Of a stretch of 64,000 nucleotides of DNA, positions 6,214 through 11,607 are shown in pieces. The position numbers and the translations under genes are program-made. The DNA is taken from the NCBI GenBank assembly GCA_000283575.1, contig AP012044.1, positions 3,286,001 to 3,350,000 of the forward strand, given 5' to 3'. The DNA comes from Oscillibacter valericigenes Sjm18-20. GTDB taxonomy: Bacteria; Bacillota; Clostridia; Oscillospirales; Oscillospiraceae. The notes under the pieces were generated by a model. That model did no database searches and was not told where the DNA came from. It saw only the letters and a program-made list of their open reading frames with translations. Numbering within the stretch: position 1 is the first letter of the stretch; each line of letters starts with the position of its first letter.

Positions 6214-6873
6214 TCAGAGCACGTAAAAATAGACCGCTGTATAGTGGAACAGGGATCCCGCCAGAATCAGCAGATGGAACAGCTCGTGAAAGGTCCACTC
6301 CACGGAAATATTTGGCTTTTTGACGGCGTAGAACACCGCACCCACGGAATAGCACACGCCGCCCAGCGCCACCAGGGTCATGCAGGGCTGTCCCACCGCC
6401 GCAAAATCCCTGGCCACGAACAGCACCGCCCAACCCATGATGAGGTAAATCACAGTGGACAAAATACGGGGCGCATTGATCCAGACGAGTTTCATCAAAA
6501 TTCCCGCCAGCGCCACCGCCCACAGCGCTATGCAGAACCGGGTGCCCGCGGGCTGGGGCAGCATCACCATGGCAAACGGCGTATAGCTTCCGGCAATCAG
6601 CACATAGATCATGCTGTGGTCCATTTTCCGAAGGAACCGCTTCGCCCCGGCGGTAAACTCGTTGCCGGGATAGTAGTGGTAGACCGCGCTGGCGGTATAT
6701 AGTGCCAGCGCTGACAGGCAGAACACCAGCGCGGCCCACAGCGTCGCCGCCGGTACATCCAGCCCCACACCCCGCACCGCCATGACGATGCAGCCAATCA
6801 GCGCGGCCACCGCGCCCAAAGCATGGGTCTCAAAGCTGACACGGTCCTGTGCCTTCGCCACCAAATCACGCAT
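6214..6873 (-). CDS. Hemolysin III family (PAQR-type) membrane protein
   Basis: A 219-residue integral membrane protein with seven predicted hydrophobic helices. It shows the metal-site pattern of the PAQR/hemolysin III family: SFETHALGA near residue 13-21, KMDHSMIYVLIAGSYTP near residue 83-99, and the closing HELFHLLILAGSLFHY near the C-terminus, giving the Ser/His/Asp and HxxxH residues thought to hold zinc. Bacterial members are membrane proteins often named YqfA or Hly III; their biochemical role is unsettled, and the haemolysin name is historical. AAAGGAG lies upstream of the ATG. It is followed on the same strand by the sensor kinase, which has its own promoter. Confidence 0.88.
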   Translation of the reverse strand: MRDLVAKAQDRVSFETHALGAVAALIGCIVMAVRGVGLDVPAATLWAALVFCLSALALYTASAVYHYYPGNEFTAGAKRFLRKMDHSMIYVLIAGSYTPFAMVMLPQPAGTRFCIALWAVALAGILMKLVWINAPRILSTVIYLIMGWAVLFVARDFAAVGQPCMTLVALGGVCYSVGAVFYAVKKPNISVEWTFHELFHLLILAGSLFHYTAVYFYVL

Positions 6874-7016
6874 AAAATTTGACTCCTTTCAGGTATCCGT
6901 CAAATGTAATTTCAATTATTATATTACATCATTCAAAAAATATTTCAAGTGGTTTCGTAAATTTAATTTCGTCGTTTTTAACAAAACCGTACCTGAAAAT
7001 TTTTTTATACGCCTGC

Positions 7017-7045
7017 TTGCAATTTATACTTAGGTCCGATACAAT
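7017..7045 (+). promoter_or_regulatory. Sigma-A-type promoter of the ssnA-ygfK transcript
   Basis: TTGCAA (7017-7022), exactly 17 bases, then TACAAT (7040-7045). Transcription would begin near 7052, just before the structured leader at 7061, leaving a leader of about 170 bases ahead of ssnA. Confidence 0.75.
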
Positions 7046-7060
7046 AAAGTCACAATAGAA

Positions 7061-7164
7061 AAATGATAGCTGGAACGAAGTGCTACTGCGCACGGGCTGA
7101 CACCTATCATTTCTTTTTGACGGGTGTTTCAAACCGGAGAGGGTTTGAAGCGCCTTTTCTTTTT
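7061..7164 (+). ncRNA. Candidate riboswitch: pseudoknotted leader with terminator
   Basis: Stem A pairs AAATGATAG (7061-7069) with CTATCATTT (7104-7112), enclosing a small hairpin GTGC/GCAC (7080-7083 with 7090-7093). ACACC (7100-7104) can pair with GGTGT (7123-7127), forming a pseudoknot across stem A. The same GGTGT is the 5' foot of a 13-pair terminator hairpin (7123-7135 with 7142-7154, two G-U pairs) followed by a T-rich run (7155-7164). Pseudoknot and terminator therefore exclude each other, the logic of an ON switch acting on transcription. Downstream are two purine-catabolism genes. It does not match the purine, preQ1, fluoride, ZTP, THF or guanidine class sequences I know. The structure is seen; the ligand is unknown, with a purine or purine breakdown product the natural guess. 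Confidence 0.65.
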
Positions 7165-7222
7165 CACAGAGCGGGAAAACTGGAAATTTTGAAACAAGAC
7201 AGGAAGACAGGAGGTTTTTGAA

Positions 7223-8566
7223 ATGATTTTACTGGCAAACGGAAAGGTTATCACCCGGGACGCGGAGGGTACCGGCTACTATCCCGACGGCGGCGTGGTC
7301 ACCGACGGGGGAAAAATCGTGGATGTGGGCAACACCGCGGAACTGAAGGCGCACTATCCAAAGGCGGAATTTGTGGACGCCAAAGGCGGCGTCATCATGC
7401 CCGGCCTCATCAACGCCCACACCCACATCTATTCCGCTCTGGCCCGCGGCCTGAGCATTGCGGGCAATAACCCCACCAATTTTTACGAGGTGCTGGACGG
7501 AACCTGGTGGGCCATCGACCGCCACCTGGATCTGGAGGCCACAAAGGCCTCCGCGCAGGCTCTGGTAATCGACTCCATCAAGCAGGGCGTCACCACCATT
7601 TTCGACCACCACGCCTCCTTCTGTGAGATTCCCGGCTCCCTGATGAAAATTGCGGAGGTCACAAAGGAATTCGGCATGCGGACCTGCCTTTGCTACGAGG
7701 TCTCCGACCGGGACGGCGAGGAAAAATCCCTCCAGTCCGTGCAGGAGAACAAGGACTTTATCGACTACTGTGAGAAAAATCCCAGTGATATGCTCAAGGC
7801 CCTTTTCGGCGGCCACGCCCTGTTCACCATCTCCGACAAAACCTTTGACCAGATGGTGGCCGCCAACAACGGCCGGGTGGGCTTCCACATCCATGTGTCC
7901 GAGGGCATGAACGACGTGTACGACAGCTTGCAAAACTACGGCCGCCGCCCTGTCCAGCGCTTGCAGGACCACGATGTTCTGGGACCAAAGACACTCCTTG
8001 GCCACTGCATCCACGTGAACACCGCCGAGATGGAGATTATCAAAGCCACCGACACCATGTGCGTCAATAACCCCGAGAGCAATATGGGCAACGCCGTGGG
8101 TATCTCCCCCATCTTGCAACTGCACAAGAAGGGAATTCTGGTGGGGATGGGCACCGATGCCTATACCAACGACATGCTGGAATCCATCAAAGTGGCCCTC
8201 TGCTCCCAGCGGAACAACGCATGCCTTCCCAACGTGGGCTGGTGCGAGGTCACCGACATGCTGTTCCGTAACAACGCCAAAATCGCCAACCGCTCCTTTG
8301 AGACACCCCTGGGCGTTCTGCGCCCCGGCGCGGCGGCAGACATCATCGTCATGGACTACAAGCCGTACACGCCGTTTTCCGACGAGAATATCGACGGTCA
8401 CATGATCTTCGGCATGACGGGCCGCCAGTGCCAGACTACCATGATTAACGGCAAAATTCTGATGCGCGACCGTGTGCTGACGGAGGTGGACGAAGAAGCG
8501 GTCAACGCCCATGTGCTGGAGAGCGCGAAGCGCCTATGGGGTCAGCTGAACCACAAGAAATATTAA
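7223..8566 (+). CDS. ssnA: Amidohydrolase SsnA (putative aminohydrolase of purine catabolism)
   Basis: A 447-residue metal-dependent hydrolase of the amidohydrolase superfamily (TIM barrel with flanking beta sandwich). Metal ligands visible: HxH in INAHTHIYSAL (His66, His68), a third His in GFHIHVSEG, a fourth in LLGHCIHVN and the barrel Asp in VGMGTDAY. Length and motifs fit SsnA, which is encoded with YgfK and selenium-dependent molybdenum hydroxylases in bacteria that degrade purines. Related enzymes deaminate guanine-like rings; the substrate of SsnA itself is not firmly established. AGGAGG (7210-7215) precedes the ATG. The gene lies 92 bases upstream of ygfK and behind the candidate riboswitch. 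Confidence 0.88.
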   Translation: MILLANGKVITRDAEGTGYYPDGGVVTDGGKIVDVGNTAELKAHYPKAEFVDAKGGVIMPGLINAHTHIYSALARGLSIAGNNPTNFYEVLDGTWWAIDRHLDLEATKASAQALVIDSIKQGVTTIFDHHASFCEIPGSLMKIAEVTKEFGMRTCLCYEVSDRDGEEKSLQSVQENKDFIDYCEKNPSDMLKALFGGHALFTISDKTFDQMVAANNGRVGFHIHVSEGMNDVYDSLQNYGRRPVQRLQDHDVLGPKTLLGHCIHVNTAEMEIIKATDTMCVNNPESNMGNAVGISPILQLHKKGILVGMGTDAYTNDMLESIKVALCSQRNNACLPNVGWCEVTDMLFRNNAKIANRSFETPLGVLRPGAAADIIVMDYKPYTPFSDENIDGHMIFGMTGRQCQTTMINGKILMRDRVLTEVDEEAVNAHVLESAKRLWGQLNHKKY

Positions 8567-8658: not shown

Positions 8659-11607
8659 ATGAGCGAATTGATGACCCCGATCCCCTTTCGGGAATTAATG
8701 ACCTGGATCACCGCGGAGCACCAGATGGAAAGCTCCGTATTCGGCGTTCACCGGCCCTATCCAGCCGGGACGAAAACGCTTCCCATTTTCGGAGAGAAAA
8801 TTGAGACGCCCTTCGGCCCCGCTGCAGGACCCGCCACTCAGCTGGCTCAGAACATCATCGCCGGGTATTACGGCGGCGCACGGTTTTTTGAGCTGAAAAC
8901 CGTTCAGAAGATGGACGGCCCGGAGCTGGCCGCCTGCGTCCACAAGCCCTGCATTCTGGCAAACGACGAGTGCTATAACTGCGAGTGGTCCACGGAGCTG
9001 TACGTCTCTCAGGCATTTGAGGAGTATGTAAAGGCATGGTGCGCCTGCAAAATGCTGGCCCATGTATACGGTTTGGGCGACCCGGACGGGTTTGTCTTCA
9101 ACATGTCGGTGGGCTATGATCTGGAAGGAATCAAGGGCGAGAAAATCGACACCTTCCTCAACGGTATGATCGACGCGTCCGGCACCGCCATTTTTGAGGA
9201 GTGCATCTCCGTTCTGCGTGAGATGTTTCCCGGCGAGGAGGCGTTCATTTCCACCATCACGCCCCACGTCTCCCGCAGCGTCACCGTCTCCACCCTGCAC
9301 GGTTGCCCGCCGGACGAGATCGAGCGCATTGCCAGCTATCTCATTCAAGAAAAGCATCTACACACCTTTGTAAAGTGCAACCCCACCATTCTGGGCTATA
9401 AGACCGCTCGGTCGGTGCTGGACTCCATGGGGTATGATTATGTGGCCTTTGACGAGCACCATTTCAACGAGGACCTGCAATACGCGGATGCGGTCCCCAT
9501 GTTCCGGCGGCTGATGGATTTGGCGGCAAAAAACGGTCTGGAATTCGGGCTGAAGCTCTCCAACACCTTCCCGGTGGACGTGAAGCGGCAGGAGCTGCCC
9601 TCCGAAGAGATGTACATGGCGGGCAAGTCTCTCTTTCCCCTGACCACTCTCATGGCGGCCCGCATTTCCAGGGAATTCGGCGGGCGGCTGCGCCTGTCCT
9701 ATGCCGGCGGCGCGGACTTTTTTAACATTGACAAGCTGTTCGCCTGCAATATCTGGCCCATCACCATGGCCACCACGGAACTAAAGCCCGGCGGTTATCA
9801 GCGCTTCAAACAGATCGGCGAAAAGCTGGAAAAGCTTTGCTACGAGCCGTTTACGTCCGTGGACGTGGACGGGATCGAAGCTTTATCGCTGGCGGCACGG
9901 AGCGACAAATACCATGTGAAGGCCGTCAAGCCCCTGCCCAGGCGAAAGCTGTATGAGAAGGTCCCCCTTCTGGACTGCTTTACCGCACCCTGCGAGGGCG
10001 GCTGTCCCATCCATCAGGATATTCCGGAGTATATCGAGCTGTGTCGTCAGGGGCGGTATGAGGACGCCCTGCGGCTCATCACCGAGAAGAACCCCCTGCC
10101 CTTTATCACCGGCACCATCTGCGCCCACCCCTGCATGAGCAAATGCACCCGGAATTTTTACGATGACCCGGTTCAGATCCGGGCAACGAAGCTGGTGGCC
10201 GCGGAAAAGGGCTATAACGCCTTGATGCGCGGCCTCAAAGCCCCTGTCCATGCCGAAAACGGCGTGAAAGCAGCCATCGTGGGCGGCGGTCCCTCCGGTC
10301 TGGCGGCGGCGTATTTTCTCGGGCGGGCTGGCATTCCCTGCACAATTTTTGAGAAGGCCGATTGTCTGGGCGGTGTGATCCGGCAGGTCATCCCCGGCTT
10401 CCGCATCAGTGACGAGGCCATCGATAAGGATATCGCGCTGGTCCTGAAAATGGGCGCGGAGGTCCGGTGTGGTGCGCCCGCGCCCTCCGTGGCGGAGCTG
10501 AAAGCCCAGGGCTACACGCACATCTACTTTGCCGTGGGCGCCTGGAAGTCCGGAGCGCTGGCAATCAGCGGCAACGTGGTTCCGGTCATCGGCTGGCTGA
10601 AAGACCTCAAGGCCGGAAAGGACGTCTCTTTGGGAAATGTGGCCGTGGTAGGCGGCGGAAACACCGCCATGGACGCGGCCCGGGCCGCCCTGCGGGCGGG
10701 AGCCAAATCCTCCACTCTGGTCTATCGCCGGACGAAGAAATACATGCCCGCTGACGCAGAGGAGCTGGAACTGGCCATTGCCGACGGCGTTCGGTTCCTT
10801 GAACTGGTCTCCCCTGTGGAGCAAAGGGACGGGGCTCTGCTGTGCAAGCGGATGAAGCTGGGCGAGCCGGATGCCTCCGGACGGCGCGCACCGGTGGAGA
10901 CCGGTGACACCGTGGAAATCAACTGCGACACGGTGGTCTCCGCTGTAGGCGAGAAGGTGGATACGCAGCTGTTTTCCGACAACGGCATCGTGGTGGACAC
11001 CAGCGGCACCCCCGACTTTAAGACAAATCTGGACGGCGTATACTGCGGCGGAGACGCCATGCGCGGCCCCGCCACGGTGGTGGAGGGCATTGCGGACGCC
11101 CAGGGCTTTGCCAACGAGGTGCTGAAGGCCGTCCATCCGGTGGACTTCCCCGTCGGCTCCTCCACCTCACGGGCGGATGCGGTGGCAAAGCGGGGTATCC
11201 TCTGTGAATCCGCGAAGTGTGAGGGCGAACGGTGTCTGAGCTGCAACGTGGTGTGTGAAAGTTGCGCGGACGTATGTCCCAACCGCGCCAACGTATCCAT
11301 CGAATTACCCGATGGGCGGCGCGAAATTCTGCACGTGGACCGCATGTGCAACGAGTGCGGCAACTGCGCGGTGTTCTGTCCCTATGACTCCGCGCCCTAC
11401 CGGGATAAGTTTACTCTGTTCCACAGCAGGGAAGATTTTGACGGGACTCCCAATTCCGGTTTTCTCCCGCTGGGCGGGCGCAAGGTATTGGTCCGGCTGG
11501 ACCGAACTATCTACGAGGCCGATTTGGACGGGAAGAACGATCTGCCCGCGGGCATCGAATGCATAATCCTGACCGTGTACAGTAAATACGGATATCTGAT
11601 GGGTTAA
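8659..11607 (+). CDS. ygfK: Putative selenate reductase/oxidoreductase subunit YgfK
   Basis: A 982-residue flavin and iron-sulfur oxidoreductase. Residues about 1-430 are the dihydroorotate-dehydrogenase-like barrel typical of YgfK. Next comes a glutamate-synthase small-subunit-like part: cysteine-rich CFTAPCEGGCPIHQDIPEY (about 436-454), an FAD motif AAIVGGGPSGLAAAYFLG (about 540-560) and an NAD(P)H motif VAVVGGGNTAMDAARAA (about 655-672). The C-terminus has clustered cysteines (CEGERCLSC..CESCADVCP and CNECGNCAVFCPYD) able to hold [4Fe-4S] clusters. YgfK is linked by context to Se/Mo-dependent purine oxidation; the selenate reductase name rests on thin evidence. GGAGG precedes the ATG. No molybdenum hydroxylase gene is in this window. 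Confidence 0.9.
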   Translation: MSELMTPIPFRELMTWITAEHQMESSVFGVHRPYPAGTKTLPIFGEKIETPFGPAAGPATQLAQNIIAGYYGGARFFELKTVQKMDGPELAACVHKPCILANDECYNCEWSTELYVSQAFEEYVKAWCACKMLAHVYGLGDPDGFVFNMSVGYDLEGIKGEKIDTFLNGMIDASGTAIFEECISVLREMFPGEEAFISTITPHVSRSVTVSTLHGCPPDEIERIASYLIQEKHLHTFVKCNPTILGYKTARSVLDSMGYDYVAFDEHHFNEDLQYADAVPMFRRLMDLAAKNGLEFGLKLSNTFPVDVKRQELPSEEMYMAGKSLFPLTTLMAARISREFGGRLRLSYAGGADFFNIDKLFACNIWPITMATTELKPGGYQRFKQIGEKLEKLCYEPFTSVDVDGIEALSLAARSDKYHVKAVKPLPRRKLYEKVPLLDCFTAPCEGGCPIHQDIPEYIELCRQGRYEDALRLITEKNPLPFITGTICAHPCMSKCTRNFYDDPVQIRATKLVAAEKGYNALMRGLKAPVHAENGVKAAIVGGGPSGLAAAYFLGRAGIPCTIFEKADCLGGVIRQVIPGFRISDEAIDKDIALVLKMGAEVRCGAPAPSVAELKAQGYTHIYFAVGAWKSGALAISGNVVPVIGWLKDLKAGKDVSLGNVAVVGGGNTAMDAARAALRAGAKSSTLVYRRTKKYMPADAEELELAIADGVRFLELVSPVEQRDGALLCKRMKLGEPDASGRRAPVETGDTVEINCDTVVSAVGEKVDTQLFSDNGIVVDTSGTPDFKTNLDGVYCGGDAMRGPATVVEGIADAQGFANEVLKAVHPVDFPVGSSTSRADAVAKRGILCESAKCEGERCLSCNVVCESCADVCPNRANVSIELPDGRREILHVDRMCNECGNCAVFCPYDSAPYRDKFTLFHSREDFDGTPNSGFLPLGGRKVLVRLDRTIYEADLDGKNDLPAGIECIILTVYSKYGYLMG

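Follow-up and report, generated by a model that had tools for sequence, protein, structure and literature searches.

A 64,000-nucleotide stretch of DNA (hereafter the window) was analysed; its source genome is 4.47 Mb in size and is assembled in two contigs. At the locus of interest, an RNA leader lies between a divergent ORF on the minus strand (6214-6873), which is presumably hemolysin III-like, and the ssnA gene (7223-8566, plus strand), and the next gene is ygfK (8659-11607, plus strand). The ssnA product was assigned as a putative aminohydrolase SsnA by TIGR03314 (543.6 bits, cut-off 455.5) and NF005540 (619.5 bits, cut-off 444), and the ygfK product matched TIGR03315 (1279.3 bits, cut-off 835.3), a model named putative selenate reductase subunit YgfK. 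Since the best match of this SsnA among 80 loci (records of the own genome possibly being excluded) is the SsnA of Oscillibacter ruminantium with 92% identity, the source is, judging from protein similarity, an Oscillibacter-type bacterium. The sigma-70-like promoter of the initial annotation (7017-7045, plus strand) is present, with TTGCAA and TACAAT hexamers spaced by 17 nucleotides and 9 of 12 positions matching the consensus. Taken alone, this promoter-like pair is weak, as the region 6880-7230 has two such sites, the second on the minus strand, against a shuffle mean of 0.9.

It was found by cmscan that the sole gathering-level Rfam match in the whole window is RF03031, the ssnA RNA (7060-7108, plus strand; 51.2 bits, cut-off 37.3, E 3.6e-11). 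The alignment spans the whole model (positions 1-48) at full length with no non-standard pairs, and the match lies upstream of the gene whose product scores over the SsnA model cut-off at 7223-8566. The ssnA RNA motif is said to have been originally described by Weinberg et al. in 2017. The initial annotation had taken the leader to fit no known class and proposed an undescribed aptamer, to be checked by an Infernal search against Rfam in which a strong hit to a known family would remove the novelty. The RF03031 match above the gathering threshold is that hit, and an undescribed aptamer class was accordingly rejected. The region 6900-7350 gave five more matches at E<=10, which were taken as chance; FuFi-1 scored 21.7 bits against a gathering threshold of 59.6, and the other four were weaker. 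On the other hand, comparison with relatives supports the annotation's broader idea of a conserved cis-regulatory attenuation leader that precedes genes of purine degradation, adopts states that exclude each other, and probably allows read-through when induced. By the same comparison, which established the family membership, the helices, the base sharing, and the gene association, the leader is a real and well-conserved attenuator of an already catalogued family.

For the comparison, 183 of 187 loci carried the core pattern, and the four loci dropped for want of the motif (L109, L110, L185, and L187) are all weak Rfam matches. Removal of 32 duplicates over the compared stretch left 151 non-redundant leaders. 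The core pattern is slightly wider than the Rfam cut-off, cmscan of eight loci giving seven RF03031 matches and none for L085. Clustering at 85%, with leaders of too little sequence skipped, provided 73 representatives, of which 72 were aligned (L061, lacking upstream sequence, was omitted). The alignment of window-type leaders contains 45 of 46 leaders, again without L061, and 44 of them are distinct; here the window replaces its own copy, L019.

The Rfam core, which is absent from the structure drawn in the initial annotation, consists of two helices on the plus strand, defined by the Rfam structure line and by pair counts in relatives. In P1, UAGCU (7067-7071) pairs with GGCUG (7095-7099), and in P2, GUGC (7080-7083) pairs with GCAC (7090-7093). 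The internal loop of the core is CUGNAACGNAG/GGG. With few exceptions, the 72 representatives keep [A/G]GCUGNAA[C/G]GNAGUGC-loop-GCACGGGC[U/C]; about a dozen core columns show no change, while the surrounding terminators often differ in sequence. In these representatives, 96.6% of the P1 and P2 cells are paired, a level reached by 6 of 500 shuffles (in all shuffle tests here, leaders were counted as independent despite their relatedness). There are 12 double-change cells, with both sides of the pair altered (0/500 shuffles), in three pairs (141/500), and pair types occur in ordinary number (405/500). In the 44 distinct window-type leaders, pairing is 100%, with eight double-change cells (0/500), all in one pair (435/500).

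Three further helices lie on the plus strand around and downstream of this core. P0, which is stem A of the initial annotation, is present as claimed: AAATGATAG (7061-7069) forms nine of nine pairs with CTATCATTT (7104-7112). In the antiterminator, ACACCUAUC (7100-7108) forms eight of nine pairs with 7119-7127 in the window, and the latter strand overlaps the foot of the terminator. The intrinsic terminator hairpin, also correctly recognised from the outset, extends from 7122 to 7155 with 14 pairs and a loop of six, and is accompanied by a T-rich tail at 7155-7164 in the sequence; one terminator was detected against a shuffle mean of 0.2. Over the 44 distinct relatives, 93.2% of the P0 cells, 99.0% of the antiterminator cells, and 99.8% of the terminator cells (13 pairs counted) are paired, versus only 26-57% when these helices are shifted by one to three columns. 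Compensatory changes among homologues, on which the initial annotation had staked both of its pairings, were found for stem A, and for the other pairing not above shuffle level. In the 44 leaders, P0 has 18 double-change cells (0/500 shuffles) in four pairs (34/500), with pair types at 138/500, and the terminator has 10 (0/500) in three pairs (22/500), with pair types at 165/500. The antiterminator is a nearly invariant helix whose covariation in the same 44 distinct leaders is not above shuffles (54/500). In one leader, L072, P0 and the antiterminator change jointly (GACAG/CUGUC/GACAGGUGU).

How are these helices related to each other? P0 and P1 share bases 7067-7069 and are thus mutually exclusive. 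Where position 7068 changes from A to G, the P1 partner changes from U to C in eight of nine leaders, whereas the P0 partner leaves a G-U pair in all nine, which argues for P1 as a genuine helix with P0 as competitor. P1 is retained by every window-type leader. Stem A lies outside the family core and shares bases with P1. As a candidate member of the core it was rejected: a stem at the P0 position was detected at p<=0.05 in only 17 of 73 representatives by a low-power test, versus 96.6% paired cells for P1 and P2. By class, the detections comprise 15 of 46 separate-terminator leaders, 0 of 5 adjacent or short-tailed ones, 1 of 19 direct ones, and 1 of 3 lacking a terminator. The claimed pseudoknot between ACACC (7100-7104) and GGTGT (7123-7127) stands as a complementarity but not as a separate element alongside stem A. 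The pairing continues into 7105-7108/7119-7122, where the window has a single A-C mismatch, and since it runs on in this way, the resulting longer helix competes with stem A; base 7104 had in fact been assigned to both pairings at once. In this extension, 172 of 176 cells are paired, and the terminator stem needs only base 7122 of those. At the terminator foot of the window, GGUGU needs two wobbles to pair with GCGCC but none to pair with ACACC, and is thus suited to a two-way contest. Bases are shared between P0 and P1, between P0 and the antiterminator, and between the antiterminator and the terminator, and in relatives the core itself overlaps the terminator, as in an expression platform.

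Among the 73 representatives, 51 have a terminator independent of the core, 19 have one only by way of the core or bases touching it (the direct leaders), and in three none was found. For 17 of the 19 direct leaders, at most 1 of 60 spacer shuffles matches the stability of the terminator; L180 (6/60) and L027 (14/60) are weak cases. L018 and L181 were counted among the separate terminators, yet the core-using folds are far more stable in both. In several direct leaders (L085, L089, L091, L107, and L116), the 3′ arm of the terminator is complementary to the conserved strand near GUGCUUCGCGCACGGGC. Since the terminator found in 19 of 73 representatives involves the core or adjoining bases, termination should be blocked once the core is stabilised, as expected of an ON switch. 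In the 51 separate leaders, of which five have tails too short for the test, pairing of the tail with the 5′ arm of the terminator beats shuffles (p<=0.05) in 28 of the 46 testable; the remaining 18 of 46 did not reach significance.

The explanation I favour, and consider reasonably probable, is that RF03031 ssnA RNA acts as a transcription-attenuation ON switch for ssnA-ygfK and most likely binds directly a small molecule from the pathway of reductive urate breakdown. That its polarity is ON, that it binds directly, and which ligand it binds are inferences. Without the signal, the leader would settle into P0, P2, and the intrinsic terminator, and transcription would stop. During synthesis, P1, P2, and the antiterminator (7100-7108/7119-7127) could form before the 3′ arm of the terminator exists. 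The signal would then stabilise the P1/P2 core and keep the tail ACACCUAUC out of P0, and the antiterminator formed by the freed tail would hold the foot of the terminator so that RNA polymerase reads through. The signal would most likely be a compound of this pathway, in the first place urate or yanthine (2,8-dioxopurine), binding the RNA directly.

Predicted folds of the growing chain in the window have P0 in the minimum at 7112-7118, P1, P2, and the antiterminator together at 7127 and again at 7150, and a mixed fold at 7137. At 7158 and 7164, the minimum contains P0 and the terminator (-39.0 kcal/mol). When the states were forced, the OFF state had -35.7, the ON state -23.8, and the state of P1, P2, and the terminator -28.2 kcal/mol. 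The ON state is thus 12 kcal/mol above the OFF state, and the combination of P1, P2, and the terminator is also better than ON. By these calculated energies, the window-type core alone does not exclude the terminator, and it is the antiterminator that must do so. Since the ON state is unfavoured at equilibrium and the core is compatible with the terminator, kinetic control, that is, the order of synthesis together with a stabilising signal, would be needed. In 45 relatives, the minima of full-length leaders contain the terminator in 44 and P0 in 38, and those of truncated leaders contain the antiterminator in 27 and P1 in 21.

The stability of P0 together with the terminator, and the good conservation of P0 in window-type leaders, would also suit an OFF switch, in which P0 belongs to the bound state and a tail kept in P0 by the ligand leaves no antiterminator to oppose terminator formation. 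An OFF switch is also known for xanthine, the NMT1 riboswitch (PMC7373994). However, P0 shares bases with P1 of the family, a P0-position stem reaches p<=0.05 in 15 of 46 separate-terminator leaders and in 1 of 19 direct ones, and the terminators of the 19 direct leaders use the core's own neighbourhood. Moreover, ssnA is named elsewhere as urate-induced (PMC12990295), and an OFF switch is accordingly quite unlikely. Far less credible is the model of the initial annotation, in which stem A and the ACACC/GGTGT pseudoknot would form together in the bound state of a new aptamer class. Both pairings exist and are conserved in close relatives, but the locus matches RF03031, the second pairing runs on through 7105-7108/7119-7122 in competition with stem A, and P1, kept by all window-type leaders, takes up stem A bases. 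Little credence of the same low order is given to a constitutive attenuator without a specific signal. It would agree with the fact that regulation here is read from sequence comparison and folds, but the invariance of about a dozen core columns amid differing terminators is something that a plain terminator does not need.

The main rival is a mechanism in which the core hairpin would be recognised by an antitermination protein instead of a small molecule, in the manner of LicT/BglG at RAT sites. A RAT is a short conserved hairpin that overlaps the 5′ strand of a terminator, and its binding leads to read-through. The layout of the ssnA RNA, a short conserved hairpin overlapping a terminator, is RAT-like, but no CAT_RBD domain was found in the window's own genome (0/1; controls matched in 4 of 14). 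In favour of this rival, too, the genome encodes a single protein with an ANTAR domain (G000:C1:732850-732993, 54.1 bits, cut-off 27.3); the target RNA of ANTAR proteins consists of two hairpins. A protein-dependent mechanism is unlikely, though it deserves the most weight among the alternatives to a directly binding ON switch.

What might the signal of such an ON switch be? In vitro, the joint action of YgfK and SsnA on yanthine, a step of the reductive urate pathway, yields ureidomethyl-hydantoin (PMC12507026). A commentary lists ssnA and ygfK among the urate-induced genes common to distant gut bacteria (PMC12990295). The hydantoinase HyuA uses the product of SsnA in this pathway (PMC12507026 and PMC12990295). 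With yanthine as the substrate of SsnA and YgfK, the gene functions point to urate or yanthine as the likeliest signal. The enzymes encoded downstream of ssnA RNA have thus been placed biochemically in anaerobic urate degradation (PMC12507026), which gives a shortlist of urate, yanthine, xanthine, and ureidomethyl-hydantoin. The gene content does not narrow it, and the full urate pathway is not established, since the models of XdhD and diaminopropionate lyase gave only below-cut-off matches in the window's genome. A D-hydantoinase over the cut-off (555.3 bits) is encoded far from ssnA-ygfK (G000:C1:2530471-2531820); no RF03031 match accompanies it, the window's being the only one in the genome. 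Among the open-access papers searched, none on the ligand or mechanism of ssnA RNA was found.

With respect to known systems, the locus does not differ from RF03031 in the core; the Rfam model covers none or only part of P0, the antiterminator, and the terminator, whose description here comes from relatives. Purine riboswitches (guanine, adenine, and 2′-dG; RF00167) control purine-related genes through terminators, and so would the ssnA RNA. Unlike them, the ssnA RNA core has no three-way junction, and RF00167 gave no match at E<=10 in 6900-7350. RAT antiterminators resemble it in layout, and their CAT_RBD protein is absent from the window's genome. The nearest in biology is the NMT1 riboswitch, like the ssnA RNA a small hairpin with a conserved internal bulge in purine-degradation biology, which binds xanthine and uric acid and turns genes OFF, likely at translation (PMC7373994). 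In contrast, the ssnA RNA has a transcription terminator and its indicated logic is ON; the NMT1 model gave no match at E<=10 in 6900-7350. Tentatively, it is possible that ssnA RNAs in general are ON riboswitches for yanthine or urate, with a core of about 32 nucleotides that switches on the reductive urate pathway and is unrelated to the NMT1 and purine classes. They might oppose the terminator in several ways, with core strands inside the terminator, with a tail antiterminator and P0 competition, or with a tail antiterminator alone. If this is true, a yanthine riboswitch would be a new ligand class, yanthine having been placed in the urate pathway only recently, and a validated ssnA RNA would lend itself at once to sensing metabolites related to uric acid. 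The direct leaders, with strands common to core and terminator, would be the cleanest test constructs, with ON as the expected sign. The interest of the locus thus lies in a testable ligand and the variety of terminator arrangements rather than in a new class.

RF03031 was found in 26 of 60 relatives, all of them within the 37 genomes of the same genus (own included). All searches of more than 40 genomes, this one included, used stricter filters and may have lost weak matches. In wider searches it was found at the family level in 78 of 300 genomes (71 above the cut-off), in 9 of 295 genomes of the order (all of the same family, own included), and in 4 of 398 genomes of the phylum. Two of the last four are over the cut-off, one being the window's own genome, and 2 of 9 genomes in the family of the other strong match carry RF03031. 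The ssnA gene itself is over the cut-off in 70 of 299 phylum genomes (own included), and the sequence covered at the best 20 of these 70 ssnA loci has no such motif. The gene is thus distributed more widely than the RNA, which seems to regulate it in a restricted lineage. An SsnA-like coding sequence, defined by a tblastn match within 1300 bases downstream and not necessarily the immediately next gene, follows 148 of the 151 leaders. This count is biased by 59 leaders that were found via the SsnA protein; of the 92 found via the RNA, 89 have SsnA. The three exceptions are L027 before a D-hydantoinase, L178 before an NfnA-like gene, and L182 at a contig end. In L027, the downstream tblastn match to SsnA is the hydantoinase itself (28.9 bits).

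In genome G022, L027 (G022:C24:14153-14198) precedes the D-hydantoinase gene and L020 precedes ssnA; the two genes, which lie near one another, are encoded on opposite strands and have separate ssnA RNAs. An NCS2 permease gene (xanthine-permease-like, below the model cut-off) lies between them. L178 (G982:C126:4571-4618) is the second ssnA RNA of its genome and precedes not ssnA but an NfnA-like gene and then a GltA-like NADPH-dependent oxidoreductase gene. At two of the eight loci scanned, a 6S RNA (RF00013, above the cut-off) was found a short distance upstream of the ssnA RNA (L085:3639-3837 and L116:1065-1261).
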